Shown here one piece after another: positions 18,033 to 33,985 of a stretch of DNA of 64,000 bases (the stretch's first letter is position 1; every line of letters begins with the position of its first letter). This DNA comes from Enhydrobacter sp. (GTDB taxonomy: Bacteria; Pseudomonadota; Alphaproteobacteria; Reyranellales; Reyranellaceae): positions 1,610,473 through 1,674,472 of the forward strand of contig CP075528.1 in NCBI GenBank assembly GCA_025808875.1, written 5' to 3'. The translations under genes were made by a program, and so were the position numbers. The notes under the pieces were generated by a model. That model had not been told where the DNA came from, did not search any database, and saw nothing but the letters and a program-made list of their open reading frames with translations.

Positions 18033-21000
18033 CTAGAAGGAGAAGCGCACGCGCGCGCCGCCGACGGCCTGGAACTCGGTGCGGGAGAATTCGGTCTCGA
18101 GCTGCAGGCCGATCGTGGTGCGCTCGTTCAGGCGCACGTCGAAGCCCGCCGACAGTATGCCGGCGTTCATGTCGACCTGGCCCGAGGTCAACGCAAAGCC
18201 GCCCTGGGGCAGGTCGGTCAGCGACGCGGTGATGTTGGACTGGCGCACGAAGTAGTGCGCGTAGGCGGCTCGGGCGAAGGCCGAGGTCCCGAGGCCGAAG
18301 ACCGTGCCGAAGTAATTGACGCGTGCGCCGATTTCTCCCCGCGCCGTCATGTTGCTGCCGGCGAGCACGGAGACTCCAGCCGGCGCACCGTTGGACCATT
18401 CCTGGAAGTCGGGATTCCACACGATGCTGCCCTGCAGGGCGGCGCTCGGACCGAAGGTGAAGCCATCGACTCCGTAGAGGTCGACCATGCCTTCGAGGCG
18501 ACCGCCGAGGCCGTGCGTTCGGTACTGCGCCGCCACGTTGTATTGGCCGAGCACCGGAATCTGCCGGTTGGAGATGATGTCCATCGTCGCATAGGACAAT
18601 GCGCCGTTCAGCAGCCACGGTCCGGTCTGCATCTGCGCATAGGTGCCGGCCTGCAGCACTTCGGCGCGGATCGAGGACAGGCCATTGTCGGGCGAGCTCG
18701 ATGCCGAGCCGCCGGAGAAGGCGATACCGAGGCGCACGCCCGGCATCACGCCCTTGTCGAGGCCCACCGAGACGCCGCCAGCCGTGTCGGTGCGCGCGCC
18801 ATCGCCCGTGACTCGCCGCACCAGCCCGAGCGCGCCGATCCAGGCGGTGAGCGGATCGATTCCCATGTCGGGCGTGACGGGACCGAGCGCGCGCTCGTTC
18901 GCGTCGCAGGAGTCGGCCGACGCGCAGGTTTCCGCCGACGGCTGCGTCGCGCGCTGCACGGCGGCGTCGAAGATCACCCGCGTCGATGCGCGGTTGGGAT
19001 CGGTCAGGCTGGAGGTGAACTGTCCGCTGGTCAGCGAGCCCACGGCGCCGACATTGGCATGCACCGCGCCCGAGATCTGGTTGAGCGCCTGCGGCACCGC
19101 GTTGGCGGGCAGGTTGTAGAGCGGGAAGAAGGCCGACACGTTGGCACCCGATGCGACGGCCCGGTCGAGTCCCGCGGCGACGGCCGCCTGGTTCGGCGTC
19201 GGCGACGGGACGATCGGCACGATCGGGGTCGGCGCGAGGGAGAGATACACGTTGTTGGCGTCGTAGGTCACCGTCGGCACGATGCCGGCGCCGAAGGATC
19301 CACTGACCGACGAACTGGTGAAGCTGCCCGTGCGGCCGCCGGCGGCGGTCAGGACGGTGTAGGGGTTGTTGAACGTCGCGCTCAAGGCGACGACCTGCAA
19401 CGCGCCCGACACGGCTGCGCCGCCCGTGACGTTGACCCTGTCGGCAAGCGCGCCGTTAACCCGGATCGTCGTCGTCGAACCCGGGGCAAGCGTGAGGTTG
19501 CCGGCGATCTGCAGGGTTCCGATCGCGGCATTGCCGGCGGCGAGAAAGGCTCCGGCGGCAACGGTCGTGCTCGGCAACGTGCCGATGCCGCCGACCCGCG
19601 CGCCGCTCGCGACGGTGAGGTCGCTGGACGAGGCGATCGAGCCGTCGACCTGCAGCGTGCCCGACGTGACCGAGGTGGCGCCGCCGTAGGTGGACGTGCC
19701 GGTGAGCGTCGTCGTGCCGCTGCCGATGTGGTTCAGCCCGCCGGTGCCCGAGATCGCATTGGCGATCGACACGGTGTCGGAGCGGTTGATCTCGAGCATG
19801 GCATCGTTGACGACGTTGCCGGTGCCGAGCGAGCCGGTAGTGCCGCCCGCGCCGATGCGCAGCGTGCCGTCGGCGATGGTGGTGGTGCCGGAGTATGTGT
19901 TGTTGCCTGTCAGGGTCACGGTGTTCGACACCAGCTTGGTCAGCGCACCCGAGCCGGCGATGGCGTTGGCGATGGTCACGGCATCCGCGCGGTTGATCTG
20001 CAGCGTGCCGTCGTTGACGACGTTGCCGGTGCCCAGCGTGCCGCTGGTGCCGCCCGCGCCGATGCTCAGCGTGCCGCCGGAGATCGTCGTGGTGCCGCTG
20101 TAGGTGTTGGCGCCGGAGAGGCTGGTCGTGCCGGCGCCGATCTGCGCCACCGTTCCGGTCCCGGAGATCGCGCTGCCGACCGTCAGGCCGTTGGAACGGT
20201 TGAACACGAGATTGGCGCTGTTGGTCACGTCGCCGCTCCCCAGCGCGCCGCTGGCGCCGCCGTCGCCGATCTGCAGGGTGCCGCTGGAGATGGTGGTCGT
20301 GCCGTTGTAGGTGCTGTTGCCTGTCAGCGTCGTCGTCCCGGCGCCGATCTGGCTCACGCTGCCGGTGCCAGAGATGATTCCCGGCACGACCAGCGCATCG
20401 GCGCGATTGAACAGCAGGCTGCCGTTGTTGGTCACGTTTCCCGTGCCGAGCGTTCCCGAACCGCCTCCGCTGCCGACCTGCAGGGTGCCGTCGGCGATGG
20501 TCGTCGCGCCGGAATAGCTGTTGTTGCCGGTCAGGGTCACGGTGTTGCCGCCGAGCTTGGCGAGGGCGCCTGCGCCGCTGATCGTGTTGGCCACGGCGAT
20601 GTCGTCGGAACGGTTGAACGCCAGGGTTCCGGTGACTGCGACGTTGCCGGTGCCGAGGCTGCCCGCGGTACCGCCGGCGCCGATCTGCAAAGTACCCTCG
20701 GCGATGGTGGTGAGCCCGCTGTAGCTGTTGTTGCCGGTCAGCGTCAGGACGGTGTTGGTACCCGCCGCCGACTTGGTCAGCGCGCCGGTCCCGGAGATGT
20801 TGTTGGCGATCGTGAGGGCCGCGTCGCTACGGTTGATCTGCAGGATGCCGTCGTTGATCACGTCTCCCGTGCCCAGCGTGCCGGTCGTTCCCGCGGCGCC
20901 GACGACGAGGGTGCCGGCGGCGATGGTCGTGGCTCCGGTGTAGGAGTTGCTGCCGGTCAGGGTCGTGGTGCCGGAGCCCGACTGCGCCACCGAACCGCTG

Positions 21001-24000
21001 CCCGAGATGTCGTTGGCGACCGTCATCGCGTTCGACCGGTCGAGGACGAAATGGCCGTCGTTCGCGACCGCGCCGCTGCCCAGGCTGCCGGTAGTTCCGC
21101 CGCTGCCGATCGCCAGTGTGCCTGCCGCGATCGTCGTCGTCCCGGAATAGGTGTTGTTCGCCGTGAGGGTGAGGACGTTGCTGAGCAGCTTCTCGAGCGA
21201 GCCGGTGCCCGAGATCGCATTGGCGATCGAAAGGTCGTCGGAGCGGTTGATCGCGAGAGTGCCGTTGTTGGCGACGGCGCCCGTGCCGAGGCTGCCGCTG
21301 GTGCCGCCGGCGCCGACCTGCAGCGTGCCGGCCGAGATCGCCGTCGTGCCGGAATAGCTGTTGTCGCCGGTGAGCGTCAGCACGTTGTCGAGCAGCTTGG
21401 CGAGCGAGCCGGTTCCCGAAATGGTGTTGGCGACCGAGATGTCGTCGATCCGGTTGAAGCGCAGGACTCCGCCGGTGGTGACGACCTCGCCGGTGCCGAG
21501 CGAACCCGTCGTGCCGCCGTCGCCGATCTGCAGCGTTCCCTCGGTGATCGTGGTGAGGCCGCTATAGCTGTTGTTGCCGGTGAGCGTCAGGACGGTATTG
21601 GTACCCGCCGCCGACTTGGTGAGCGCGCCGCTGCCGGACAGGTTGTTGGCGATCGTGAGGGCGGCGTCGCTACGGTTGATCAGCAGGGTGGCGTTGTTCA
21701 CCACGTCGCCGGTCCCGAGTGTTCCGATCGTGCCGCCGGCGCCGACGCTCAGCGTGCCGCCCGTGATCGTCGTGACGCCGGTGTAGCTGTTGGCGCCGGT
21801 GAGGCTCGTGGTGCCGTCGCCGAGCTGCGTCACGGTGCCGGAGCCCGAGATCGCGCTGGCCACGGTGAAGGCGTTGGATCGGTTGAACAGCAGGCCCGCG
21901 TCGTTGACGGTGGCGCCTCCCCCGAGCGCGCCCGTCGTGCCGCCATCGCCGATCTGCAGCGCGCCGCCGGCGATCGTGGTGCCGCCGGAGTAGGTGTTGG
22001 CGCCGGTCAGGACGGTGGTGCCGCCGCCGATCTGGCTCACCGCGCCGACGCCGGAAATCGCGCCGGACACCGTCAGCGCATCCGACCGGTTGAAGAGCAG
22101 GCTGCCGGCGTTGGCGACGGTGCCGCCGCCGAGCGAGCCCGACGTGCCGCCGTCGCCCAGTTGCAGCGCGCCGCCGACGGCGATGCTGGTCGCGCCCGTG
22201 TAGCTGTTGTCCGCCGTCAGGGTCAGGGTGTTGGTGCCCTGCTTGCTCAACCCGCCACTGCCCGAGATCTGGTTGGCGACGGCGATGTCGTCGGAGCGGT
22301 TGAAGGACAGCGTCGCGTTGTTGACCACGTCGCCGGTGCCAAGCGAGCCGATGGTGCCGCCGGCGCCGATCGCGAGGGTTCCGGCCGAAATCGTCGTGGT
22401 GCCGGAGTAGCTGTTGCTGCCGGTCAGCGTGACCGTGTTGCCCAGGAGCTTGCTGAGATTGCCCGAGCCGGAGATGTCGTTGTCGACGGTGAAGGCGTTG
22501 GTGCGGTTGAACTGCAGGGTGGCGTCGTTGATCACGGCGCCGGTCCCCAGGGTGCCGGAACTGCCGCCCGCGCCGAGGCTCAGAACGCCGTCGGCGATGG
22601 TCGTCGTGCCACTGTAGGTGTTGGTTCCCGTGAGGCTCGTGATCCCGCTGCCGATCTGGCCGACGCTGCCGCTGCCCGAGATCGCGCTCGCCACGGTGAG
22701 CGCGTCGGAGCGGTTGAAGAGAAGATTGCCGGCGTTGGTGGTGGCGCCGGTCCCGAGCTGTCCGGAGGTGCCACCACTGCCGATCTGCAGGGTGCCGTCG
22801 GCGATGGTCGTCGCGCCGGAATGGGTGTTGTTTCCGGTCAAGGTCACGGTGTTGCCGCCGAGCTTGGCGAGGGCGCCCGCGCCGCTGATCGTGTTGGCAA
22901 TGGCGATGTCGTCGGACCGGTTGAAGGCGAGGGTTCCGCTTACCGCGACGTTGCCGATGCCGAGGCTGCCGGTGGTGCCGCCGTCGCCGATCTGCAGGGT
23001 GCCTGCGGTGATCGTCGTCGTGCCGGCGTAGCTGTTGTCGCCGGTGAGCGTCGCGGTGCCGGCTGCCAGCTTGGTGAGGCCGCCGGATCCCGAGATCTCG
23101 TTGGCGATGGCGATGGCGTCGGAGCGATTGACCTGCAGCGTGGCGTTGTTGACGACGTTGCCGGTGCCGAGGGTCCCGGCCGTGCCGCCGGCGCCGACGC
23201 TCAGGATGCCGGCATCGATGGTCGTGGTGCCGCTGAAGCTGTTCGTTCCGGTCAGGCTCGTCGTGCCCGTTCCGGCGTGGGTCAGGGTGCCGGTGCCGGA
23301 GATCGAGCTCGAAATGGCGAGCGAACCCGTGCGATTGATCACAAGGGCGCCGTCGTTCGTGGTGGCCCCGGTGCCGAGCTGGCCCGCGCCGCCGCCGGCG
23401 CCGATCTGCAGCGTGCCGGTCGAGATCGTGGTGGTGCCGGAGTAGGTGTTGGCGCCCGTCAGGGTCGTCGTGCCGGATCCGGCCTGGCTGACGTTGCCCG
23501 TTCCCGAGACGACGTTGGCGACCGTCATTTCGTCGGAGCGATTGAAGACGAGGATCGCGTTGTTCGTGACGCCCCCGGTGCCGAGGCTGCCCGAGGTGCC
23601 GCCGTCGCCGACCTGCAGCGTTCCCTCGGTGATCGTGGTGATTCCGGAATAGGTGTTGTTGCCGGTGAGCGTCAGCACGTTGTCGAGCAGCTTGCCGAGC
23701 TGGCCCGTGCCGGTGATGGTGTTGGCGACCGAGATGTCGTCCGAGCGGTTGAACTGCAGGATGCCGCCCGACGTGTTGACGTTTCCCGATCCCAGGCTGC
23801 CAGTGGTGCCGCCGTCGCCGATCCGCAGCGTGCCCTCGGTGATCGTCGTCGTGCCGGAGTAGCTGTTGTTGCCCGTCAGGGTCAGGACCGTGCTCGTGCC
23901 GGCCGTCGTCTTGGCCAGCGATCCGGTGCCCGAGATGTCGTTGGCGACGGTGACGTCGTTCGAGCGGTTGACCTGGAGGATCGAGTTGTTGACGACGGCA

Positions 24001-26255
24001 CCGCTGCCGAGGCTGCCCGTGGTGCCGCCGGCACCCACGCTCAGCGTCCCGGCCGAGATCGTCGTCGTGCCGGTGTAGGTGTTGTCCCCGCTGAGGCTGG
24101 TGGTGCCGGTGCCGGCCTGTTCGACCGTGCCGCTGCCGGAGATGGCGCTGGCGACGGTCAGCGCGTTGGAGCGATCGAACACCAGGACGCTGTCGTTGGT
24201 CGTCGCGCCGGTGCCGAGCTGGCCGGTCGTGCCGCCGTTGCCGATCTGCAGCGTGCCGTCGGCGATCGTCGTGGTGCCGGAATAGGTGTTGTTTCCGGTG
24301 AGGATCGTCGAGCCGCTGCCGATCTGGCTGACGTTGCCTGTGCCCGAGATGACCCCGCCATGGGTGATCGTGTCGGAGCGGTTGAAGACGAGGTCGCCGC
24401 TGTTGGACACGTTGCCGCCGCCGAGCATACCCACCGTGCCGCCGTCGCCGACCTGCAGGGTGCCGGCCGAGATCGTGGTCGTGCCGCTGTAGGTGTTGTT
24501 GCCGGTGAGGGTGACGACGTTGTCCAGCAGTTTGCCGAGGCCGCCCGTTCCCGTGATCGTGTTGGCGATCGAGATGTCGTCGGAGCGATTGAACTGCAGC
24601 GTGCCGCCCGACGTATCGACGCTGCCGCTGCCGAGCGAGCCCGTCGTGCCGCCGTCGCCGATGCGCAGCGTGCCTTCGGTGATCGTGGTCGTGCCGCTGT
24701 AGGTGTTGTTGCCGGTGAGCGTCAGGACGGTGTTGGTGCCGGCGCCGGTCTTGGTCAGCGCGCCCGATCCGGAGATGTCGTTGGCGATGGTGGCGGCGTT
24801 CGATCGGTTGATCTGCAGCACGCCGTCGTTGACGATCGCGCCGGCGCCGAGCGTCGCGGTCGTGCTGCCGGTGCCGGCACCGAGCTGCAGCGTGCCGTTC
24901 GATATCGTCGTCGTGCCGGTGTATGTGTTGACGCCGCTCAGGCTGGTCGTGCCGCTGCCGACCTGGGACACCGTGCCGCTGCCGGAAATGGCGCTCGACA
25001 CCGTGAAGGCGTCGGAACGGTTGAACAGCAGGCTGCCTTCGTTGCTGGTCGCGCCCGTGCCGAGCGTGCCCGTCGTGCCGCCATCGCCGATCTGCAGTGT
25101 GCCGTTGGCGATCGTGGTTGCGCCGGAGTAGGTGTTGGCGCCGGTCAGGGTCAGCGCGTTGGCGCCCTGCTTGTTGAGCTGGCCGGTGCCGGTGATGTTG
25201 TTGGCGACCGAGATGTCGTCGGACCGCTCGAACCGCAGGATGCCGCCCGATGTCACGACGTTGCCCGTTCCGAGCGAGCCGGTCGTGCCGCCGCTGCCGA
25301 TCTGCAGCGTGCCCTCGGTGATGGTGGTCGTGCCGGCATAGCTGTTGTTGCCGGTCAGGACCAGGGTGGTGTTGGTGCCGGCGTTGGATTTCGTCACCGC
25401 GCCGGTGCCCGAGATGTCGTTGGCGATGGTGATCGTGTCGTCGCTGCGGCTGAACAGCAGCGTCGCATTGTTGACGACGTCGCCGGTGCCCAGCGTGCCG
25501 GTCGTGCCGCCGCTGCCGATGCTCAGCGTGCCGGCGCTGATCGTCGTGGTGCCGCCGTAGCTGTTGTTGCCCGTGAGCTGGGTCGTGCCGGCGCCGAGCT
25601 TGGTGACGGTGCCGCTGCCCGAGATGGCGCTGGCGACCGCCAGCGTGTTGGAGCGGTTGAACAGCAGGCTGCCGTCGTTGACCGTGGCGCCCGATCCCAG
25701 CCCGCCCGTCGTGCCGCCCGCGCCGACGCTGAGCTGCGCGCCGCTGGCGATCGTCGTTCCTCCCGAGTAGGTGTTGTTGCCGGTGAAGGTGACGTCGGCG
25801 CCGGTGATCGCGGTGGCGCCGCTGCCCGAGATCACCGGCGCGAGGCCGATGGCGCTTGCCCCCGATGCGGTGAGCGTCGATCCGGCGCCCAGCGAGAGCG
25901 TGCCGGCGCCTAGCACGGAGGCGTTCGAGATGTCGAAGGCGGTCTGCACGGTGAGCGTGCGGGTCGAATTGATCGTCAGCGAGCCGGCAGTGATGCTGAC
26001 CGTGCCGATCGTGAAGCTGCCGGCGATGATGGGCTGGTTGGCGCCGTCGGCGTTGAAGATCGCGCTGTTGCCCGCGCCCGGCACCGTGCCGGTGCTCCAG
26101 TTGGCGCCGGTGCCGTAATTAGTGCCGGTGTAGAGCCAGGTCGATTGGGCGAGCGTCTCCGTCGCGCCCAAGGGGAGCGCGCACATCGCTGCGGCAAGGC
26201 CCTGCGCCTTGCGGCGTCGACGCTTGGCAGCCCGCGTTATGGATCGTTTTCTCAT
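18033..26255 (-). CDS. Giant autotransporter adhesin-like protein with 30 passenger repeats
   Basis: A 2740-residue type V-secreted protein. A long basic signal peptide (about 1-37, ending ETLAQ) leads to a short beta-rich head, then 30 copies (my count) of an autotransporter-associated beta-strand repeat with core LTGNNTYSGTTTI-GTLQIGDGGTTGSLGTG, period about 70 residues (about 158-2200). A low-complexity linker PTPIVPIVPSPTP follows, and residues about 2460-2740 form the C-terminal beta-barrel ending in RVRFSF with the terminal Phe expected for BAM recognition. The passenger should fold as a long beta-helix on the cell surface. Some units are 3 residues longer (AGTNTVLTLTGNNSYSG) and recur at regular intervals, showing block duplication. 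It is monocistronic with an AT-rich upstream region. No protease or known ligand-binding motif was recognised. Confidence 0.93.
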   Translation of the reverse strand: MRKRSITRAAKRRRRKAQGLAAAMCALPLGATETLAQSTWLYTGTNYGTGANWSTGTVPGAGNSAIFNADGANQPIIAGSFTIGTVSITAGSLTINSTRTLTVQTAFDISNASVLGAGTLSLGAGSTLTASGASAIGLAPVISGSGATAITGADVTFTGNNTYSGGTTIASGAQLSVGAGGTTGGLGSGATVNDGSLLFNRSNTLAVASAISGSGTVTKLGAGTTQLTGNNSYGGTTTISAGTLSIGSGGTTGTLGTGDVVNNATLLFSRSDDTITIANDISGTGAVTKSNAGTNTTLVLTGNNSYAGTTTITEGTLQIGSGGTTGSLGTGNVVTSGGILRFERSDDISVANNITGTGQLNKQGANALTLTGANTYSGATTIANGTLQIGDGGTTGTLGTGATSNEGSLLFNRSDAFTVSSAISGSGTVSQVGSGTTSLSGVNTYTGTTTISNGTLQLGAGTGSTTATLGAGAIVNDGVLQINRSNAATIANDISGSGALTKTGAGTNTVLTLTGNNTYSGTTTITEGTLRIGDGGTTGSLGSGSVDTSGGTLQFNRSDDISIANTITGTGGLGKLLDNVVTLTGNNTYSGTTTISAGTLQVGDGGTVGMLGGGNVSNSGDLVFNRSDTITHGGVISGTGNVSQIGSGSTILTGNNTYSGTTTIADGTLQIGNGGTTGQLGTGATTNDSVLVFDRSNALTVASAISGSGTVEQAGTGTTSLSGDNTYTGTTTISAGTLSVGAGGTTGSLGSGAVVNNSILQVNRSNDVTVANDISGTGSLAKTTAGTSTVLTLTGNNSYSGTTTITEGTLRIGDGGTTGSLGSGNVNTSGGILQFNRSDDISVANTITGTGQLGKLLDNVLTLTGNNTYSGITTITEGTLQVGDGGTSGSLGTGGVTNNAILVFNRSDEMTVANVVSGTGNVSQAGSGTTTLTGANTYSGTTTISTGTLQIGAGGGAGQLGTGATTNDGALVINRTGSLAISSSISGTGTLTHAGTGTTSLTGTNSFSGTTTIDAGILSVGAGGTAGTLGTGNVVNNATLQVNRSDAIAIANEISGSGGLTKLAAGTATLTGDNSYAGTTTITAGTLQIGDGGTTGSLGIGNVAVSGTLAFNRSDDIAIANTISGAGALAKLGGNTVTLTGNNTHSGATTIADGTLQIGSGGTSGQLGTGATTNAGNLLFNRSDALTVASAISGSGSVGQIGSGITSLTGTNTYSGTTTIADGVLSLGAGGSSGTLGTGAVINDATLQFNRTNAFTVDNDISGSGNLSKLLGNTVTLTGSNSYSGTTTISAGTLAIGAGGTIGSLGTGDVVNNATLSFNRSDDIAVANQISGSGGLSKQGTNTLTLTADNSYTGATSIAVGGALQLGDGGTSGSLGGGTVANAGSLLFNRSDALTVSGAISGVGAVSQIGGGTTVLTGANTYSGGTTIAGGALQIGDGGTTGALGGGATVNDAGLLFNRSNAFTVASAISGSGTVTQLGDGTTSLTGANSYTGVTTITGGTLSVGAGGTIGTLGTGDVVNNATLLINRSDAALTIANNLSGSGALTKSAAGTNTVLTLTGNNSYSGLTTITEGTLQIGDGGTTGSLGTGEVVTTGGVLRFNRIDDISVANTISGTGSLAKLLDNVLTLTGDNSYSGTTAISAGTLQVGAGGTSGSLGTGAVANNGTLAINRSDDLSIANAISGTGSLEKLLSNVLTLTANNTYSGTTTIAAGTLAIGSGGTTGSLGSGAVANDGHFVLDRSNAMTVANDISGSGSVAQSGSGTTTLTGSNSYTGATTIAAGTLVVGAAGTTGTLGTGDVINDGILQINRSDAALTIANNISGTGALTKSAAGTNTVLTLTGNNSYSGLTTIAEGTLQIGAGGTAGSLGTGNVAVTGTLAFNRSDDIAVANTISGAGALAKLGGNTVTLTGNNSYSGATTIADGTLQVGSGGGSGTLGTGNVTNNGSLLFNRADALVVPGIISGTGSVSQIGAGTTTLTGNSTYNGTTTISSGTLQIGDGGASGALGSGDVTNSANLVFNRSNGLTVGSAISGTGTVAQIGAGTTSLSGANTYSGTTTISGGTLSIGAGGTSGTLGTGNVVNDGTLQINRADAVTIANAIAGSGALTKLVSNTVTLTGNNTYSGTTTIADGTLRIGAGGTTGSLGTGNVVNDAMLEINRSDTVSIANAISGTGGLNHIGSGTTTLTGTSTYGGATSVTSGTLQVDGSIASSSDLTVASGARVGGIGTLPSTTVAAGAFLAAGNAAIGTLQIAGNLTLAPGSTTTIRVNGALADRVNVTGGAAVSGALQVVALSATFNNPYTVLTAAGGRTGSFTSSSVSGSFGAGIVPTVTYDANNVYLSLAPTPIVPIVPSPTPNQAAVAAGLDRAVASGANVSAFFPLYNLPANAVPQALNQISGAVHANVGAVGSLTSGQFTSSLTDPNRASTRVIFDAAVQRATQPSAETCASADSCDANERALGPVTPDMGIDPLTAWIGALGLVRRVTGDGARTDTAGGVSVGLDKGVMPGVRLGIAFSGGSASSSPDNGLSSIRAEVLQAGTYAQMQTGPWLLNGALSYATMDIISNRQIPVLGQYNVAAQYRTHGLGGRLEGMVDLYGVDGFTFGPSAALQGSIVWNPDFQEWSNGAPAGVSVLAGSNMTARGEIGARVNYFGTVFGLGTSAFARAAYAHYFVRQSNITASLTDLPQGGFALTSGQVDMNAGILSAGFDVRLNERTTIGLQLETEFSRTEFQAVGGARVRFSF
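19680..25785 (-). repeat. Passenger-coding tandem array, ~210-bp units x 30
   Basis: Thirty in-frame units inside the autotransporter gene, mean spacing about 210 bp (204-216). Units are diverged, not identical. Five long units containing VLTLTGNN(S/T)YSG or close variants map near 20.73, 21.57, 23.87, 24.70 and 25.35 kb; four of the spacings correspond to 4, 11, 4 and 3 units, which indicates duplication of multi-unit blocks. Confidence 0.85.
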
Positions 26256-26423: not shown

Positions 26424-27176
26424 TCAAGCGCGGCGTCGGAAGAACAACCACGGGTCGCGCATGAACGCATCGCGCGCGGCGTCGCGCATCGGCGGATCGC
26501 AAAGCTGCAAAGCGGCGCGCCGCTGGAAGATCATGTCGCGCCTGACGCCACAGGTGTTCATCGACGTGCCGTGCGCGAGAAAGCTGTGGGCGACGATGAC
26601 GTCGCCGGCCGCGAGTCTCGGTACGACCATCCGGGCCTCGTCGAGCAGCGCTTTCTGGCCCGCGATCTTCACTTCGCCCCAATTCACCTCGCCGGCCGGT
26701 TGCCCTGCGAACAACGTGGCGAAGCGGTGATGCGATCCGGGCAGGACATGAAAGCCTCCCACCGTATCGGATTCGACGTCGGTCAACGCGACGCCGAACA
26801 ACGCGTTGAACGCGGCGAGCGACGGCGCCTGGCCGCCGTCGATATGGAAGTGCCGGCCGACGATGCCCTTGGTCGCGAAGCCCGGCATGGTCGAGGCGAG
26901 CTGGATGCGCTCGGGCGCGTGCACGGTTTCCAGGATCTCGGCCGCCAGCGGATCGAGGGCGCCTTCGACGAGTGCCACGAAGTCGGGGTGCCGGCAGTCG
27001 CGGATCTCTCTCCACGATTCGTTCCTGCTGCGCTCCCAGCCGCCCTCGGGATGGACCGCGTTGATCTGCGCCGCCGTCACTTGCGCGCGACGCAACAGGC
27101 GGGCGTCGACACCGCGGGAAACGACGGTGTAGCCGTCGCCGATGAGCTCCTGCCAGTTCGTGTTCGAAAAGGCCAT
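26424..27176 (-). CDS. Phytanoyl-CoA dioxygenase (PhyH) family protein
   Basis: A 250-residue Fe(II)/2-oxoglutarate-dependent oxygenase. The metal triad is His111-x-Asp113 (HFHIDGG) and a distal histidine in AHSFLAHGTS (197 or 202), followed by an Arg (VRRDM) suited to 2-oxoglutarate. GGFHVLPGSHH at 140-150 is the typical loop. PhyH relatives hydroxylate varied small molecules. It is divergent from the HD-domain gene over about 110 bases; no obvious pathway partner. Confidence 0.88.
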   Translation of the reverse strand: MAFSNTNWQELIGDGYTVVSRGVDARLLRRAQVTAAQINAVHPEGGWERSRNESWREIRDCRHPDFVALVEGALDPLAAEILETVHAPERIQLASTMPGFATKGIVGRHFHIDGGQAPSLAAFNALFGVALTDVESDTVGGFHVLPGSHHRFATLFAGQPAGEVNWGEVKIAGQKALLDEARMVVPRLAAGDVIVAHSFLAHGTSMNTCGVRRDMIFQRRAALQLCDPPMRDAARDAFMRDPWLFFRRRA

Positions 27177-27286
27177 GCGGCGATTCTCGGAGGATCGAGG
27201 CGCAATGTCTACGGCGCGGCCGGTCGCCCGGTGCTAGGTTCCGCCAAAGACAGGCGGCCGGACGAAGGCCGATGGAAGGGATGGAC

Positions 27287-28048
27287 ATGACCGACGCTCA
27301 AACCTTGTCGCAGCGGGCTGATGCGCTCGAAGCCAGGATGGCGCGCGAACTCGATCTCATCGTCGTCAAGTCGAGGCTTCACAGTCTGGCCGAGGGCGAC
27401 ATGAGTCCACCGCGGAATGCCGGGGCGTTGATGAAGGCCAATCCGAACGCGCGCGTTCTGATGGGCGACGATCCGCGACTTCCGGCGATGCCGGAAAAGC
27501 CGACGTTGATCGATTTCTTCAAGTATCGCTTCGGGCCCTCGATGCACTTGCTGCAAAGCGCGCGGCACGCGGTGACGGCCGGGTTGCCCGAGAAGATGGT
27601 GCTGGCATGCCTGCTGCACGACATCGCCGGCGTGGGCTTCATCCGCGGTGACCACGGCTACTGGGGAGCACAGCTCGTCGAGCCCTATGTCGATCCGGAA
27701 GTGACATGGGCGATCCGCGCCCATCAGGTGCTGCGCTTCTATCCCGACGAATCGGTCGGCTACGAATACCCCCAGTCCTACGTTGCCCTGTTCGGCGCCG
27801 ACTATCGGCCTGATCCCTACATCGACGAGGACTACAGGCGCATGCGCGATCACAAGTGGTACATGTCGGGCCGGCAGATCACCGTGCACGACATCTATTC
27901 GTTCGATCCCGATCTTCATGTCGAGTTGGCGGAATTCACCGACATCATCGGCCGCAACTTTCGCCAGCCAGCGCAGGGACTCGGCTACGACAACAGCCCC
28001 GTCGCGCACATGTGGCGGGCGATGATCCGACCGGCGAAGTACCTCTAG
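27287..28048 (+). CDS. HD-domain-like protein, putative phosphohydrolase
   Basis: A 253-residue protein with an HD-like core: SARHAVTAG, then LACLLHDIAGVG (about 105-116) and WAIRAHQVLRFYPDES. HD proteins bind divalent metals and often hydrolyse phosphates, although some, such as myo-inositol oxygenase or PhnZ, are oxygenases. Three in-frame ATGs exist (27272, 27281, 27287); the last is chosen because GGAAGGG (27274-27280) sits 6 bases before it. Its stop overlaps the stop of the convergent MDR gene by three bases. Confidence 0.75.
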   Translation: MTDAQTLSQRADALEARMARELDLIVVKSRLHSLAEGDMSPPRNAGALMKANPNARVLMGDDPRLPAMPEKPTLIDFFKYRFGPSMHLLQSARHAVTAGLPEKMVLACLLHDIAGVGFIRGDHGYWGAQLVEPYVDPEVTWAIRAHQVLRFYPDESVGYEYPQSYVALFGADYRPDPYIDEDYRRMRDHKWYMSGRQITVHDIYSFDPDLHVELAEFTDIIGRNFRQPAQGLGYDNSPVAHMWRAMIRPAKYL

Positions 28049-29172
28049 GTCCTGCTCGGATCGATCAGGAACTTCTCGCCGGTCGCCCGCTTGGCGTAGG
28101 CGGCAATGTTCTTCGGATCGAGCGCCTCGGCGAGCGACACCGTCCGGGTGTAGTGGCTGGCGAACGTGGTCTTGAGTTCGCCGACCACGCGCTCGCGCAG
28201 GCGCACCTGGTCGGGTCGGCCGATCTTCTGCAGGAAGGGCGTGAGCAGCCAGCCGCCGACGCCCCACGCCATGCCGTAGTTGCGCACCAGCTCGACCGGC
28301 CCGGTGTTCAGGCTGCCGTAGATGTAGACCTGCTTGTGCGTGGTCGAGCCGTAGCGGCTGTATTCCTTCGCCGTCTTGTTCAGCGCGATCTCCATCGCCG
28401 TCAGGATCTGGCTGGCGAGCTTGCCGCCGCCGATCGCGTCGAAGGCGATGGTGGCGCCGGTCTCGACCAGCGCCTGGACGAGATCGTCCATGAATCCGGG
28501 TGCGCTCGAATCGACGACATGCTTGGCGCCGATGCCCTTCAGCAGCTTGGCCTGCTCGGCGCTCCGCACCACGTTGACCAGGCCGATGCCGTCCTTGAGG
28601 CAGATCTTCACCAGCATCTGGCCGAGGTTCGAGGCGGCCGCGGTATGCACCAGCGCCTTGTGGCCCTCGCGCTTCATCGTCTCGGTCATGCCGAGCGCCG
28701 TCAGCGGGTTCACGAACCACGACGCCCCCTCCGCCGCGCTGGTGCCGGCCGGCAGAGGCTGGCAGTCGGTGGCCTTGAGCAGGCGGTACTGCGCGTACAT
28801 TGCGCCGCCGATCATCGACACCTTCTTGCCCATCAGCGCCTGCGCCGCTTCCGAGCTGCCGGCCTTGATGACGGTGCCTGCGCCCTCGTTGCCGACCGGC
28901 ATTGCCTGGCCGAGCCGCGCGGCGAGGAAGGGCAGGGAAGCCCCGGAGACCTTGCCGGTCACTTTGATGCCGTCGCCGCTGCCGGACGCCGTGAGTGTCG
29001 TCGGATCGGCGGGGCCCAGGAGCAGGCCGAGGTCCGACGGATTGATCGGCGTCGCCTCGACCTTGACCACGACCTGATCGGCGCCGGGCTCGGGCACCTC
29101 GATCCTGGCGAGCGACAGTTCGAGGTCGCCGCTCTTGGTGATGAGCGAACGAAGCTGCAGACCGGTGGTCAT
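28045..29172 (-). CDS. Zinc-binding dehydrogenase / quinone oxidoreductase-like MDR protein
   Basis: A 375-residue medium-chain dehydrogenase/reductase. The GroES-like domain has VVVKVEATPINPSDLGLLLG and PVGNEGAGTVIKAG; the nucleotide domain carries ALVHTAAASNLGQMLVKICLKDGI and FDAIGGGKLASQIL. Catalytic-zinc cysteines are not evident, as in zeta-crystallin-type quinone or enoyl reductases. It is the last gene of the ACP-SPT-MATE series, 16 bases after the MATE stop, so it might reduce an intermediate of that pathway (inference). GAGCAAGG precedes the ATG. Confidence 0.86.
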   Translation of the reverse strand: MTTGLQLRSLITKSGDLELSLARIEVPEPGADQVVVKVEATPINPSDLGLLLGPADPTTLTASGSGDGIKVTGKVSGASLPFLAARLGQAMPVGNEGAGTVIKAGSSEAAQALMGKKVSMIGGAMYAQYRLLKATDCQPLPAGTSAAEGASWFVNPLTALGMTETMKREGHKALVHTAAASNLGQMLVKICLKDGIGLVNVVRSAEQAKLLKGIGAKHVVDSSAPGFMDDLVQALVETGATIAFDAIGGGKLASQILTAMEIALNKTAKEYSRYGSTTHKQVYIYGSLNTGPVELVRNYGMAWGVGGWLLTPFLQKIGRPDQVRLRERVVGELKTTFASHYTRTVSLAEALDPKNIAAYAKRATGEKFLIDPSRT

Positions 29173-29188
29173 CCTTGCTCTCCCAAAT

Positions 29189-30538
29189 TCATCCTCGCCA
29201 GGCGGGCCGTGTCGTCGAGAAGGCGAGCACCGCAGCGAAGGACACGATGCCGAGTGCCACGAAGGCATACAAGCCCTGCACGCCCCAGCCCGCGATGTCG
29301 AGCGCGAACAGGCTGCCGCAGACCGCAATGCCGATGCGGAACAGGTTCGCGACGACGGGCCACACCATCTCGCCGGTGCCCTGCGATGCGAAATAGAGCG
29401 CCATCGCCAGGCCGAAGAATCCGTAGACCGGCCCGACGATGCGCAGGTAGGTGCGACCCGATTCGAGCGCCCCTGCATCGGTCGTGAACAGGCCAAGCCA
29501 CAGGTCGGGCGAAACGGCGACGATGGCGCCGATCGTCGCGGCGATGCCCCCCGCCATCAGCGCGCCCATCCAGGCAAGTCGCTGGGCACGGGCAAACTGC
29601 CGGGCGCCGATGTTCGTGCCGACCAAGGCGGTCAGTGCGGCGCCGATGCCGAAGCTGATCGGCACCAGCATGTACTCCAGCCGACTGCCGATGCCATAGC
29701 CGGCGATGGCTGCGTCGCCGGCGCGCCCGACCAGGCCGGTGACGATCAGAACGGTGCCGTTGGTCAGGATGACGACCAGACAGGCGACGAGGCCGACCTT
29801 GAGGATGTCGCGGAAGGCCGCCCAACGGAATCCTTCCCTGGGCAAATGCAGGCGCACGACGGCCCCCGGCCCGATGAGGCGCGAGGCCATCCACAGCGCA
29901 GCCAGGGAAAAGGCTGCGACCGATGCCGCCGCGGGGCCGACGATGCCGAGTACCGGCAGGCCGAACCAGCCGAGCGTCAACGCGCCCGTGAGCGGGATCT
30001 GCAGTGCGGCGGTGGCGACGAAGGCGAGACCCGGCGTCTTCATGTCGCCGGTGCCGCGCAGCACGGAGGCCAGTGTGTTGGCGATCCAGTGGGCGCCGCA
30101 GCCGAGAAACAGGACCGTCGCGAACGAAAGCGCACCTTCGAGCGCGCGACCGCTGCCGCCCAAGGCGCCATAGATCGGTCGCCCGAAGCCGACCAACACG
30201 ACGGCGAACAGGGCGGCCATGCCGAGCGCGATGGCGAGCGCGTGCGCGGCGGCCGCTTCGGCGGCGGCGCGGTTGCCGGCGCCGAGCGCGCGCGCCACGG
30301 AGGAGGAGATGCCGCCGCCCATGGCCCCGGCCGACATCTGGCCGAGCGCCATCTGGGTCGGGAAGACCAGGGCGAGCGCCGCCAACTCGACCGTCCCGAG
30401 GCGGCCGACGAACCAGGCGTCGGAAATGCTGACCAGGCTTTGCATGGCGACGCTCAACGCGTTGGGGGCGGCGAGCAGGAGGATCGTCGGCACGATCGGG
30501 CCGGCGAGCATCATCTGCCGGCGTTCAGCGGGACTCAT
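29189..30538 (-). CDS. MATE family efflux transporter / MOP-superfamily flippase-like
   Basis: A 449-residue protein of about 12 spans. Typical MATE features: LAAPNALSVAMQSLVSISDAWFVGRLGTVELAALAL in the first half, repeated as GIGSRLEYMLVPISFGIGAALTALVGTNIGA in the second. MATE proteins exchange H+ or Na+ for organic cations, but the superfamily also includes lipid flippases. It lies 42 bases after spt on the same strand, which raises the possibility of lipid or long-chain-base transport. The start MSPAERR is preferred over an upstream in-frame ATG. Confidence 0.88.
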   Translation of the reverse strand: MSPAERRQMMLAGPIVPTILLLAAPNALSVAMQSLVSISDAWFVGRLGTVELAALALVFPTQMALGQMSAGAMGGGISSSVARALGAGNRAAAEAAAAHALAIALGMAALFAVVLVGFGRPIYGALGGSGRALEGALSFATVLFLGCGAHWIANTLASVLRGTGDMKTPGLAFVATAALQIPLTGALTLGWFGLPVLGIVGPAAASVAAFSLAALWMASRLIGPGAVVRLHLPREGFRWAAFRDILKVGLVACLVVILTNGTVLIVTGLVGRAGDAAIAGYGIGSRLEYMLVPISFGIGAALTALVGTNIGARQFARAQRLAWMGALMAGGIAATIGAIVAVSPDLWLGLFTTDAGALESGRTYLRIVGPVYGFFGLAMALYFASQGTGEMVWPVVANLFRIGIAVCGSLFALDIAGWGVQGLYAFVALGIVSFAAVLAFSTTRPAWRG

Positions 30539-30580
30539 GACGCGGCTCTCTAGCACGCGTTGTCGATGGTCCGCGCGAGC

Positions 30581-31798
30581 TTATTTCATGGCAGGCCGAG
30601 CTTCCTCTTCGAGTACGCCCATCTGCCGGGCGATGCCGGTCATCACCTCGATCATATGCCCGAGCTGCTCCCTGGTGTGTTCCGCGCAGAGGGCGCAGCG
30701 CAGCAGGGAGATGCCGTTCGGCGTCGCAGGCGGCGTGGCGACGCCGACATAGATGCCGGCCTCCAGCAGGGCGCGCCAGAAGGCGATCGCCGCGGCGCGG
30801 TCCGGCATCATCACCGCGACGACCGGTCCCTGCACAGGGCCGAGCCGGAAGCCGCGTGCGGCAAGCCCGTCGTAGAATGTCGCCGCGTTCTCCCACAGGC
30901 GACGGCGCAGGTCGGGCCGCTCGCGCACGATCCGTAGCGCTTGGCGGACGGAAGCGATGACCGAAGGCGGCGCCGAGGCGGTGAACATGTAGGAGCGTAC
31001 GGTCACGCGCAGGATGTCGAAGTCGGGATCGTCCGACACGACATAGCCGCCAATGGCGCCGAGAGTCTTCGAGAAGGTACCGACAATGTAGTGGCAGTCG
31101 TCGAGCACGCCTTCGGCCTCGCAGAGGCCGCGGCCGTTCTCTCCCAGCGCCCCCAGCGAATGGGCCTCGTCGACGAGAACGTAGGCGCCATGCTTGCGGC
31201 ACACGTCGATGAACGCTCTGAGCGGCGCGCGATCGCCCAGCATGGAGTAGATGCCCTCGAGCACGACCAGGCGGTTGCCCGGCTCGTTGCTCAGCCGGCG
31301 CAGGCGCACTTCCAGGCTCGCGGGGTCGTTGTGCCGGAAGCGCCCGACCTCGGCCTGAGTCTGCCTGCAGGCGTCGTAGATCGAGGCATGGCTGTCGGCG
31401 TCGATCAGCAAGTGGTCGCCGTCGCCGACCAGCCCCGATATCACGCCGAGATTGGCCTGGTAGCCTGTGGTGAAGACCATGCAATGCCGCTTGCCGTAGA
31501 ACTCGGCGATCTCGCGTTCGAGCAGGGCGTGCTGCCCGTAGCTGCCATTGGCGATGCGCGAGCCGGTCGTGCCCGTGCCTTCGGCCCGGATCGCTTCGAT
31601 CGCCGCCGCCATGCAGGATGGATCGAAGGTCAGGCCAAAGTAATTGTGGGTGCCGGCAAGCAGCGTCTTGCGGCCATCGATGATCGCCTCGGTGGGCGAC
31701 AGGACTCGTTCCATCCGCACCTGGAACGGGTCGGCGCCGGTCGTCTGCACGCCGCGATAGTCCGCGAGCAGTGCAGCATGACGATCGAGCAGACCCAT
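30581..31798 (-). CDS. spt: Serine palmitoyltransferase (alpha-oxoamine synthase family)
   Basis: A 405-residue PLP enzyme. The PLP lysine is Lys244 in GTFSKTLGAIGG, the stacking histidine His137 in DADSHASIYD, and the Asp/His pair DEAHSLG at 210-216. The GTFSK form (GTLGK in BioF and Kbl), FRHND, LVVLEGIYSMLGD and a C-terminal PPATPNGISLLRC segment match bacterial serine palmitoyltransferases of Sphingomonas and Caulobacter type closely, from memory. The reaction condenses L-serine with a C16 acyl thioester to 3-ketodihydrosphingosine, the first step of sphingolipid synthesis. The ACP gene lies 4 bases upstream, as next to Caulobacter spt, so an acyl-ACP is the likely donor. BioF or another oxoamine synthase is the main alternative. 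Confidence 0.86.
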   Translation of the reverse strand: MGLLDRHAALLADYRGVQTTGADPFQVRMERVLSPTEAIIDGRKTLLAGTHNYFGLTFDPSCMAAAIEAIRAEGTGTTGSRIANGSYGQHALLEREIAEFYGKRHCMVFTTGYQANLGVISGLVGDGDHLLIDADSHASIYDACRQTQAEVGRFRHNDPASLEVRLRRLSNEPGNRLVVLEGIYSMLGDRAPLRAFIDVCRKHGAYVLVDEAHSLGALGENGRGLCEAEGVLDDCHYIVGTFSKTLGAIGGYVVSDDPDFDILRVTVRSYMFTASAPPSVIASVRQALRIVRERPDLRRRLWENAATFYDGLAARGFRLGPVQGPVVAVMMPDRAAAIAFWRALLEAGIYVGVATPPATPNGISLLRCALCAEHTREQLGHMIEVMTGIARQMGVLEEEARPAMK

Positions 31799-31802
31799 CC
31801 CG

Positions 31803-32093
31803 TCAGCGCTCGTCGCACAGCCCCAGGATGGCGTCGGCGAGGTCGTCGACGGTGCGGATCTCCGTCGCGAGCTGCGGCGAGATCGTGATGTCGAACCGGT
31901 CCTCGAGCTGGATGATGAGGTCCATGACGGTGAGCGAGTCGACACGGGTGCCGTCGCAGATCACAGTGTCGCCCGAGAGTTGGGTGTCGCTCGCCAGGTA
32001 GGGCGCGAGGTACTGACGGATCTCGCGCAGGACTTCCATCTGCAGAGAGACTCGCGCGACCTTGCGAGGAATGAGTTCGATCGTATCTGGCAT
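31803..32093 (-). CDS. Acyl carrier protein dedicated to the adjacent SPT
   Basis: A 96-residue ACP. The phosphopantetheine serine is Ser53 in VDSLTVMDLIIQLEDRF, with the acidic helix II of ACPs. The N-terminus (MPDTIELIPRKVARVSL) is longer and more basic than housekeeping AcpP. It is 4 bases upstream of spt and likely cotranscribed, the arrangement known for sphingolipid-producing Caulobacter. Its role is inferred to be presenting the acyl chain to SPT. Confidence 0.88.
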   Translation of the reverse strand: MPDTIELIPRKVARVSLQMEVLREIRQYLAPYLASDTQLSGDTVICDGTRVDSLTVMDLIIQLEDRFDITISPQLATEIRTVDDLADAILGLCDER

Positions 32094-32120
32094 ACCGGTC
32101 CCCGCCGTGTTGAGGGCGAT

Positions 32121-32151
32121 ATTTCACCGATATGCGATGTCGATGTGAAAT
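32121..32151 (-). promoter_or_regulatory. Dyad upstream of the ACP-SPT operon
   Basis: ATTTCAC, 17 bases, GTGAAAT: perfect 7-bp arms centred about 43 bases before the ACP start, in an AT-richer spacer (32094-32190). Arm spacing suits a regulator dimer contacting two adjacent major grooves. No regulator gene is nearby. Confidence 0.45.
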
Positions 32152-32190
32152 GACGTTTGGTTACCGCCCGTTGCGATACATTTCGTAATG

Positions 32191-33552
32191 TTACTCGGCC
32201 GCGAGCGGTGTCGGATCGAGCCAGCGGCCGATATCACCGAGCGCACGTGCCGACAGCGCCTGCTTGCGCTCCTTGCCCCGCAGGTTGCCCTCGATGGGCG
32301 GGAACAGGCCGAAATTGACGTTCATCGGCTGGAACGTCGCGGCATCCGCGCCGCCGGTGATGTGGCCGAGCAGCGCGCCCATCGCAGTGGTCGGCGGCGG
32401 CGCGACCGGGGCAAGGCCCCGCCGTTCGGCGGCGGCGAAGCGGCCGGCCATCAACCCGACAGCGGCGCTTTCGACATAGCCTTCGCAGCCGGTGATCTGG
32501 CCGGCGAAGCGCAGTCGCGGCATCGCCTTCAGACGAAGCGTGCCATCGAGTAGCCGCGGGCTGTTGAGGAAGGTGTTGCGATGCAGGCCGCCCAGCCGGG
32601 CGAACTCGGCGTTGTGCAGTCCGGGGATGGTGCGGAAGATTCGAGTCTGCTCGCCATGTCTGAGCTTGGTCTGGAAGCCGACGATGTTCCAGAGCGTGCC
32701 GAGAGCATTGTCCTGGCGGAGCTGCACGACGGCCCACGGACGGCGACCGGTGCGTGGATCGCGCAGGCCGACGGGTTTCATCGGCCCCCAGCGCAAGGTA
32801 TCGGGGCCGCGCGCCGCCATCACCTCGATGGGCAGGCAGCCGTCGAAGTAGGGCGTGTTGCTCTCCCATTGCTTGAACTCGGTCTTGTCGCCCGCCAGCA
32901 GGGCGGCGACGAAGGCTTCGTATTCTTCCCTGCCGAGCGGACAGTTCAGATAGTCGCTGCTGCCCTTGTCGTAGCGCGACTGCTTCCAGGCGATCGATTG
33001 GTCGATGCTCTCATAGTGGACGACGGGCGCGATGGCATCGAAGAAGGCGAGCGCCTCCTCGCCGCTCAGGTCGCGGATCGCCTCGGCCAGGGCCGGCGCG
33101 GTGAGAGGGCCGGTGGCGACGATCACGCTGTCCCAGTCTTCGGGCGGAAGCGCCGTCACTTCCTCGCGCCGCAACTCGACCAGCGGATGGCCAAGCAGGG
33201 TCTCCTGGACGGCCGCCGAGAAGCCGTGGCGGTCGACGGCAAGTGCCCCGCCGGCCGGCAGCTTGTGCATGTCGGCGGCACGCATGATCAGCGAATCCGC
33301 TCGCCGCATCTCCGCATGCAGCAGGCCGACGGCATTGTTCGCCGCATCGTCGGAGCGGAAGGAGTTGGAGCACACCAGTTCGGCGAGCGAGCCGGTCTGG
33401 TGGGCCTCCGTGCCGCGCAGCGGCCGCATCTCGTGCAGCACGACCGACACGCCGGCCAGCGCAAGCTGCCACGCGGCCTCGCTGCCGGCCAATCCGCCGC
33501 CCACGATGTGCACAGGGCGCGCATCGCGCGCCGGCTTGATGCTTGACGTCAT
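32191..33552 (-). CDS. trmFO: tRNA (uracil-5-)-methyltransferase, folate/FAD-dependent (TrmFO)
   Basis: A 453-residue flavoprotein that makes 5-methyluridine-54 in tRNA using methylenetetrahydrofolate and FAD. N-terminal [18 protein letters not shown] binds [17 protein letters not shown] (Cys61) and [15 protein letters not shown] hold the two conserved cysteines; [11 protein letters not shown] is a C-terminal family hallmark. Length matches the family. It is divergent from the RidA-like gene; the downstream spacer leads to the ACP promoter region. Confidence 0.96.
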
Positions 33553-33598
33553 CCCATCCGACCTGAAACTGACGCCTCCTTACATGGGGGACCCCGAG

Positions 33599-33985
33599 AT
33601 GGCCAACAAGTTCCACAATCCCAAGAGCGTCGTGCTGGCCGGCAAGTACAGCCTGGGCTGCGAAATCCCGGCCGGCGCGCGCATCCTGTTCGTCGCCGGA
33701 CAGGTCGGCGTCGACAGCGGCGGCAAGCTGCTCGACGGGATCGATGCGCAGTGCGACCAGGTCTGGAAGAACATCGGCGAGGTGCTCAAGGCCGCCGGCA
33801 TGGATTACAGGGACATCGTCAAGATCGTTGTGTTCCTGACCGACAGCCGCTTCATCGCGGCGAGCCGTGCCGCGCGCGAGAAGTACATCGGCGAGCCCTA
33901 TCCGGCGTCGACGCTGTTGATCGTTCAGGGATTGGCAGATCCTTCCATGCTGGTCGAGATCGAGGTGGTGGCGGCCAAGAGCTGA
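33599..33985 (+). CDS. RidA/YjgF/Rid-family protein lacking the canonical arginine
   Basis: A 128-residue Rid-fold protein: ILFVAGQVGVDSGGKLLDGIDAQCDQVWKNIGEVLKAAGM, then VKIVVFLTDSRF and MLVEIEVVA. The arginine that RidA uses to hold imine substrates (in PARSCV-type motifs) aligns with PASTLL here, so this is not a standard imine deaminase. Other Rid subfamilies lacking it have varied or unknown roles. The start MANKF is chosen over an in-frame ATG 15 bases upstream because GGGGG precedes it. Confidence 0.86.
   Translation: MANKFHNPKSVVLAGKYSLGCEIPAGARILFVAGQVGVDSGGKLLDGIDAQCDQVWKNIGEVLKAAGMDYRDIVKIVVFLTDSRFIAASRAAREKYIGEPYPASTLLIVQGLADPSMLVEIEVVAAKS

Follow-up and report, generated by a model that had tools for sequence, protein, structure and literature searches.

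In Caulobacter crescentus and other Rhodobacteria, the gene for serine palmitoyltransferase (SPT) directly follows the gene for the acyl carrier protein (ACP) AcpR on the same strand, in an operon that also has aasR and cerR (PMC9386255, PMC11324152). Acyl-AcpR is the preferred donor of SPTs of the AcpR type, and is made by AasR, which is reported to be specific for AcpR (PMC9386255). CerR is reported to lie in the periplasm and SPT, like ceramide synthase, in the cytoplasm, which calls for some kind of export (PMC11087976). According to PMC11324152, it is not known how sphingolipids move to the outer membrane from the inner one, and CC_1166 is a potential flippase. Here we analyze a stretch of 64,000 nucleotides from an Enhydrobacter sp. 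genome (GCA_025808875.1, contig CP075528.1, positions 1,610,473 to 1,674,472; "the window", in whose numbering all gene positions are given) in which a second SPT gene, SPT2, stands beside an ACP gene, ACP2. As in the Caulobacter crescentus operon, the ACP gene directly precedes the SPT gene on one strand. Unlike in that operon, the window pair has no adjoining aasR or cerR, ACP2 is a distinct paralog of AcpR by sequence, and a MATE transporter gene follows.

ACP2, SPT2, MATE and an MDR gene all lie on the minus strand of the window, with intergenic gaps of 4, 42 and 16 bases. An earlier note on this DNA had described these four genes, and their coordinates and strand hold exactly. It had proposed them as a candidate unit that would make and transport sphingolipids, in which MATE could be a lipid flippase and MDR the 3-ketosphinganine reductase, two roles that it called speculative. 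The observation is thus confirmed, but the operon and the roles assigned to its members are mostly refuted by the comparisons below.

A second SPT gene far from the ceramide locus

The genome is a single contig of 5.19 Mb, and its other SPT gene (SPT1, at 4,242,217-4,243,413) codes for a protein 80% identical to SPT2. SPT1 is part of a core locus at 4.24 Mb (L005; loci compared have L-numbers and genomes G-numbers), 2.6 Mb from the window, with the gene order fatty acyl-AMP ligase (AasR-like), Epimerase-family protein (CerR-like), ACP, SPT, metallophosphoesterase and GNAT-like protein. The order ligase, epimerase, ACP, SPT matches that of the Caulobacter crescentus operon with aasR and cerR (PMC9386255, PMC11324152). 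The ligase scores 741 bits against a cut-off of 600, and SPT1 scores 650 bits on the NCBIfam serine palmitoyltransferase equivalog NF047599. Its family and position suggest that the Epimerase-family protein is CerR. The GNAT-like protein is a candidate ceramide synthase, a role that rests on the locus and on our reading of the protein because it matched no Pfam or NCBIfam family.

SPT2 is an extra copy, and this genome is the only one among those searched to have a second SPT. At E = 1e-100 there is one SPT match in each of 36 relatives from the same genus and two here. In a sample of 385 genomes from the class, 49 have an SPT match, and a second match was scored in this genome alone (at most four candidates were scored per genome). 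The ACP2-SPT2 pair of the window is found in no other searched genome of the genus.

We compared the surroundings of SPT in 34 of the 36 relatives (all but G007 and G034), taking flanks of up to about 9 kb per side, or less at contig ends. An ACP gene is beside SPT in 34 of the 34 loci, a CerR-like gene is nearby in all 34 (one of them cut by a contig end), and AasR is nearby in 33, the sole exception lying at a contig end. The phosphoesterase is near SPT in 32 loci; for the GNAT-like gene the number is 29, and a contig end lies at several of the loci where one or the other is missing. In our genome the metallophosphoesterase (L005:8260-9180, minus strand) comes after SPT1; at least two relatives, G014 and G013, have kilobases between the two genes. 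Neither MATE nor MDR occurs within these flanks in any of the 34 loci. Across the class we examined 28 loci from the 49 SPT-bearing genomes, with 1.5-kb flanks; three are from the same family (G016, which is shared with the 34, G393 and G222) and 25 from other families. ACP is present in all 28 and a CerR-like gene in 25, and no MATE or MDR was found in these flanks. The earlier note had itself named a lack of conservation of the neighbors as telling against a four-gene sphingolipid unit, and that is the result for MATE and MDR in the genus and class loci alike.

The site of the extra copy in related genomes

Upstream of ACP2 lies trmFO (32191-33552, minus strand; NCBIfam TrmFO 673 bits, cut-off 262), which is present at the MATE and/or MDR locus of relatives and served to anchor it. 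This locus could be compared in 35 of the 36 relatives; G007 has no match to MATE or MDR at the level of an ortholog. An ACP gene stands immediately before MATE in 25 of the 35, with trmFO upstream in 24 of these (the contig of G010 begins after trmFO), and none of the 35 has an SPT at this locus. In G005 and G033, trmFO and ACP lie near the end of one contig and MATE starts another, so that ACP2 and MATE are probably adjacent across the contig breaks in these two genomes also. Eight relatives (G001, G002, G003, G011, G016, G018, G023 and G028) have a single ACP match, the one in the core locus, and G007 has a second ACP that was not placed. In G393, an additional member of the genus, the ACP, the leader element described below and MATE are all present.

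The SPT copy of this genome thus sits between ACP2 and MATE, which many relatives have as immediate neighbors with no SPT. The relative G024 has the MATE nearest to that of the window (85% identity) and one of the nearest ACP2 proteins, and in it MATE comes immediately after ACP2. When the 66 bases upstream of the window MATE are aligned with this junction of G024, the score is 20, compared with a maximum of 15 and a mean of 7.7 in 2000 shuffles. The alignment takes in the SPT2 stop codon, so the homology to the junction begins at the very end of SPT2. On its other side SPT2 is 4 bases from ACP2; gaps between acpR and spt in the genus are 2-50 bases.

Nine relatives have a gene of about 321-326 codons between trmFO and ACP2 (L141, L142, L143, L151, L152, L153, L155, L169 and L174). 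One more relative, G023, has it in the absence of ACP2; at L145 it lies before MATE. The one protein of this kind that we scanned gave only a sub-threshold match to Coq4.

ACP2 is a paralog of the sphingolipid carrier protein

ACP2 (31803-32093, minus strand) has 96 residues, an ATG start and its attachment serine in a DSL motif, and scores 35.5 bits on Pfam PP-binding (cut-off 20.8). It is the genome's only other ACP that matches P0001 at 1e-6, and is 47% identical to ACP1 of the core locus. We built a tree of 65 ACPs from an alignment of few columns (89), rooted by choice on one AcpP, the only AcpP in it. The window ACP falls in a group of 26 rows with 25 ACPs from the MATE loci of relatives (support 100/99), apart from the SPT-linked ACPs, its nearest neighbor being the ACP2 of G024 (80/72). 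A set of 61 genus ACPs that includes ACP2 is separated, with support 86/83, from those of G037, G049 and FK1.bin31 and from the genome's own AcpP. By this phylogeny ACP2 groups with AcpR rather than with the housekeeping AcpP and is a paralog of the sphingolipid ACP AcpR; the separate ACP2 group excludes it as the ortholog of acpR from the aasR-cerR-acpR-spt locus. The earlier reading finds support in the identity of SPT, in the AcpR-like ACP beside it and in the presence of a standard ceramide locus in the genome. The four genes as one inherited sphingolipid unit find none; what persists of the grouping, in changed form, is an AcpR-like ACP that stands beside MATE, with no SPT, in most of the genus.

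SPT2 retains the features of a serine palmitoyltransferase

SPT2 (30581-31798, minus strand; 405 residues, ATG start) scores 161 bits on Pfam Aminotran_1_2 (cut-off 19.7) and 627 bits on NF047599, above that model's cut-off of 500. It is under the cut-offs of bioF (314 bits vs 426) and glycine C-acetyltransferase/Kbl (283 vs 460), is also below that of the ALAS model, and misses that of NF047603 SerpalmtaseAlphaP (488 vs 670). In a ranking of PDB sequences, eight SPTs come top with 427-440 bits; Kbl scores 209 and the BioF entries 1bs0/1dj9 about 170. By family, then, SPT2 is a true bacterial SPT, as the earlier note had proposed, and we reject BioF or Kbl on the model cut-offs and the PDB ranking. 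The solved bacterial SPTs 2jg2, 2w8j and 2x8u, which we take to be of Sphingomonas origin, match it over nearly their full length at about 430-440 bits and have the same catalytic motifs.

Lys244 and His137, at the positions given in the earlier note, are identical in all 39 other aligned SPT rows, as are Asp210 and His213. We presume that Lys244 is the lysine that binds pyridoxal phosphate and that the other three residues have their usual catalytic roles. The FRHND motif begins at residue 154, and RIANGSY and PPATP are also retained. The arginine that precedes PPATP in 2jg2, 2w8j and 2x8u, presumably the residue known as R378 with its attributed role, is Thr355 in SPT2; it is mostly Val in the SPT1 proteins of the genus, and Val, Ile or Leu in most of the aligned relatives.

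Among 275 sites that are invariant in the SPT1 rows compared (a set without G027 and the outgroups, used also for substitution rates), SPT2 differs at 27, and its changes near conserved motifs include Asn51His and Asn352Gly. Between SPT2 and its own SPT1 the nonsynonymous divergence (dN) is 0.143 and the synonymous divergence (dS) 0.594, a dN/dS ratio of about 0.24, whereas among SPT1 genes the ratio, calculated from medians, is about 0.14. A ratio of 0.24 points to purifying selection: SPT2 is constrained, yet changes faster than SPT1. Since the catalytic residues are also retained, SPT2 looks functional but diverged.

In trees of SPT sequences, from which we omitted L006 (a paralog with 33-35% identity), SPT2 lies within the SPT set of the genus, with support of 98/97 in a first protein tree and 100/100 in a DNA tree. 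Its branch in the first protein tree is long (0.64, compared with a median of 0.029). A second protein tree and the DNA tree also omit G049, a Caulobacter metagenome-assembled genome and the partial G027. The GC content of SPT2 (0.671) is like that of its neighbors; that of SPT1 is 0.663. With SPT2 inside the genus set and its GC content like that of its neighbors, a recent transfer from outside the genus is not favored.

MATE has a conserved leader

The MATE gene (29189-30538, minus strand; 449 residues, ATG start) scores 156.7 bits on Pfam MatE (cut-off 24.9) and passes the TIGR00797 family of MATE efflux transporters (162 bits vs 147.4), while it is under the cut-off of every MATE equivalog listed. 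Orthologs with 77-85% identity, one of them partial, are present in 33 of the 36 relatives. G003 and G016, the latter a complete single-contig genome, lack this MATE and retain the core SPT locus, and MATE relatives also occur in G046, G048 and G055, genomes of the class that have no SPT match at 1e-100. Two relatives, G012 (L138) and G021 (L175), have tandem copies of MATE, of which the less similar one is 65-69% identical to the window MATE.

An 18-base element lies 5' of MATE (30572-30589, minus strand) and encloses the SPT2 stop codon (30581-30583). Its consensus, CATGAGATAAG.TCGCG.G, is found at this position, with at most two mismatches, in 33 of the 34 genomes of the genus in which this MATE is present (this genome plus 33 relatives); a stricter first pattern matched 28 of the 34. 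The element occurs both with and without ACP2. The sole exception is G005, whose ACP2-MATE junction is interrupted. There (end of L193, G005:C134; start of L160, G005:C112) the inserted sequence resembles, by eye, an insertion sequence. At four MATE loci outside the genus we saw no copy by eye.

This genome has one match to the element, which is exact and at MATE, and a reversed control pattern also has one (at most two mismatches). In the 37 genus genomes together there are 39 matches, 33 at MATE and 6 elsewhere, compared with 11 for the reversed control; G003, G005, G007 and G016 have none. Lone weak matches can thus be due to chance, but the position before MATE is not. In the 33 aligned leaders (G005 was omitted because its leader is interrupted) the most frequent base at each position has an average share of 0.92 in the element, a value inflated by aligning the leaders on their best match, 0.51 in the 30 bases starting 40 upstream and 0.64-0.68 downstream. 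A second conserved box, GCGTGCTA (30551-30558, minus strand; consensus cGCgTGcTA in the 33 aligned leaders), may be a -10 region. A scan of 27900-33700 with the sigma-70 consensus found no promoter, so we call the MATE leader conserved rather than a proven promoter. We read it as a promoter or operator of MATE, and because the SPT2 stop lies within an element that is kept with or without ACP2, MATE probably has its own promoter. The 42-base gap, holding a conserved element, is not mere operon spacing.

MDR is a quinone oxidoreductase-type protein

The MDR gene (28045-29172, minus strand; 375 residues, ATG start) passes the cut-off for ADH_N (25.9 bits vs 23.5) and falls narrowly under that for ADH_zinc_N (31.3 vs 31.8). 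Its nearest solved relative is PDB 3iup, which matches it end to end (522 bits, residues 2-374) and is a putative NADPH:quinone oxidoreductase, a function that is the depositors' label only; nothing in our searches tied it to sphingolipids. Both genes are present in 27 loci of relatives, and in 9 of these MDR comes no more than 120 bases behind MATE on the same strand. In the other 18 they are about 0.6-9.7 kb apart, and in G005 they are on opposite strands. In G003 and G016, where MATE is missing, MDR follows trmFO. The genomes G041, G046 and G055 have MDR relatives and no SPT match at 1e-100.

KDSR belongs to a family of the short-chain dehydrogenase type, and a 3-ketosphinganine reductase (KDSR or CerR) is expected to be a short-chain or extended short-chain protein. 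We reject MDR as the 3-ketosphinganine reductase that it had been suggested to be, on its ADH_N/3iup family, the CerR-like gene in the core locus and its loose genomic position.

Other genes of the window

Next to MDR is a divergent pair (26424-28048) of an HD-domain gene on the plus strand and a PhyH-family gene on the minus strand, which is also present in G024 (about 5 kb from MDR) and G005 (about 2.4 kb from MDR). Farther on, an open reading frame of 2740 codons (18033-26255, minus strand) probably codes for a giant autotransporter-like surface protein, because it contains 29 stretches that match the Pfam PATR passenger repeats. An overlapping plus-strand reading frame of 2676 codons has no family match.

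Discussion

The explanation that we consider probable, though well short of certain, is that the window holds a re-partnered second entry step into sphingolipid synthesis, made by joining a copy of spt to a spare AcpR-like ACP. In many relatives the order is trmFO, the spare ACP2, and MATE with a leader element of its own; in this genome the spt copy sits between ACP2 and that leader. We infer from comparative sequence data that SPT2 is active and has ACP2 as its partner: it would most likely use ACP2-bound acyl chains, condensing them with L-serine to 3-oxo-sphinganine, a product that would feed the standard ceramide pathway of the core locus at 4.24 Mb. MATE would be transcribed separately, and MDR would be an oxidoreductase with no relation to this pathway, probably of the NADPH:quinone type. 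The weakest step is the presumed loading of ACP2 in trans by the AasR-like ligase of the core locus. This is uncertain because the published AasR acylates its own AcpR specifically (PMC9386255) and ACP2 is only 47% identical to ACP1.

That loading step is one of several points that weigh against this explanation, and the others concern when SPT2 arose. The acpR-spt pair could instead have been duplicated ahead of MATE prior to the radiation of the genus, with SPT2 then lost in every sampled relative and ACP2 mostly kept. We regard this as unlikely, if still a serious contender. It would account for the resemblance of the ACP2-SPT2 spacing to that of acpR-spt, and for SPT2 being roughly equidistant from all SPT1 proteins: it is no closer to its own SPT1, at 80%, than to the SPTs of relatives (76-83%, the top value being from a partial one), whereas the SPT1 proteins of the genus have a median identity of 90%. 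At third positions SPT2 differs from its own SPT1 by 0.338, compared with 0.232 between that SPT1 and the SPT of G024, which suggests that the copy is not recent. At sites 27 and 328 SPT2 has the residue of three outgroup rows, lost in all SPT1 rows compared, and approximately unbiased (AU) tests do not reject an origin before the radiation (p-AU = 0.098 for protein and 0.19 for DNA). On the other side, several independent losses would be required as opposed to one gain, none of the 35 comparable loci of relatives has an SPT match, and the trees place SPT2 with its own SPT1 (82/85, DNA) or join it to the subclade of SPT1 (86/73, second protein tree), although neither grouping is starred. We therefore favor a gain of SPT2 in this lineage over an ancestral pair with repeated loss. 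A change of substrate, to another amino acid or acyl chain and so to a different amino-ketone lipid, could be the reason for the long SPT2 branch and the changes at 27 otherwise invariant sites, Asn51His and Asn352Gly among them; with the lysine, both histidines, Asp210, RIANGSY and PPATP intact and a score above the SPT equivalog cut-off, we think it quite unlikely.

The remaining alternatives give MATE a part in sphingolipid metabolism. A single ACP-SPT-MATE-MDR operon for synthesis and transport would fit the shared strand, the short gaps, and the loci of relatives where MDR closely follows MATE, but we consider it very improbable. No MATE or MDR is found near SPT in the genus or class loci, the core locus already has a CerR-like gene, MATE has a conserved leader, and G003 and G016 keep the core SPT locus in the absence of this MATE. 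MDR relatives occur in genomes that have no SPT match, and the close solved relative of MDR is a putative quinone oxidoreductase. To an export module for sphingoid lipids composed of ACP2 and MATE, without MDR, in which SPT2 would have joined a site already tied to these lipids, we give a small chance. In its favor, an AcpR paralog is the immediate upstream neighbor of MATE in 25 of 35 relatives and in G393, and probably in two more across contig breaks. The arrival of the SPT copy beside the only other ACP matching P0001 is also unlikely by chance, and the periplasmic location of CerR requires export from the cytoplasm (PMC11087976). Against it, the core locus is kept by the two relatives that lack MATE and by the 8 of 36 that lack ACP2, and the MATE leader occurs with and without ACP2. 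A stronger version of this idea, to which we give a slim chance, is that ACP2-MATE is a sphingoid-lipid module of this genus, maintained next to a conserved leader of its own, that MATE is an inner-membrane exporter of ceramide, or of an SPT2-specific variant lipid, to the periplasm, and that SPT2, by landing next to the only other AcpR-like ACP, reveals the link.

We found nothing on point in the open-licence literature that links a MATE protein to SPT and ACP, or to a bacterial lipid flippase and ACP; the one title that came up for the latter concerned fitness genes of uropathogenic E. coli. The main text of PMC9386255 makes no mention of a paralog, second copy, two copies, transporter, multidrug or Reyranella, and among the first 10 of 17 matches listed, no title or opening of an abstract connected Reyranella with sphingolipids. 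Gap sizes alone had suggested an operon, and comparison shows instead a gene set between two older neighbors. In our class sample 48 of the 49 SPT-bearing genomes have one match, whereas here a second SPT has been joined to a different carrier protein. An active SPT2 would represent a natural exchange of ACP partner by an SPT and could help to map the recognition of AcpR by SPT. The AcpR-like ACP that stands beside MATE in most of the genus is, despite the two relatives that keep the core locus without this MATE, a fair lead on the passage of ceramide through the inner membrane; for that step the literature consulted here names no more than a potential flippase (PMC11324152).

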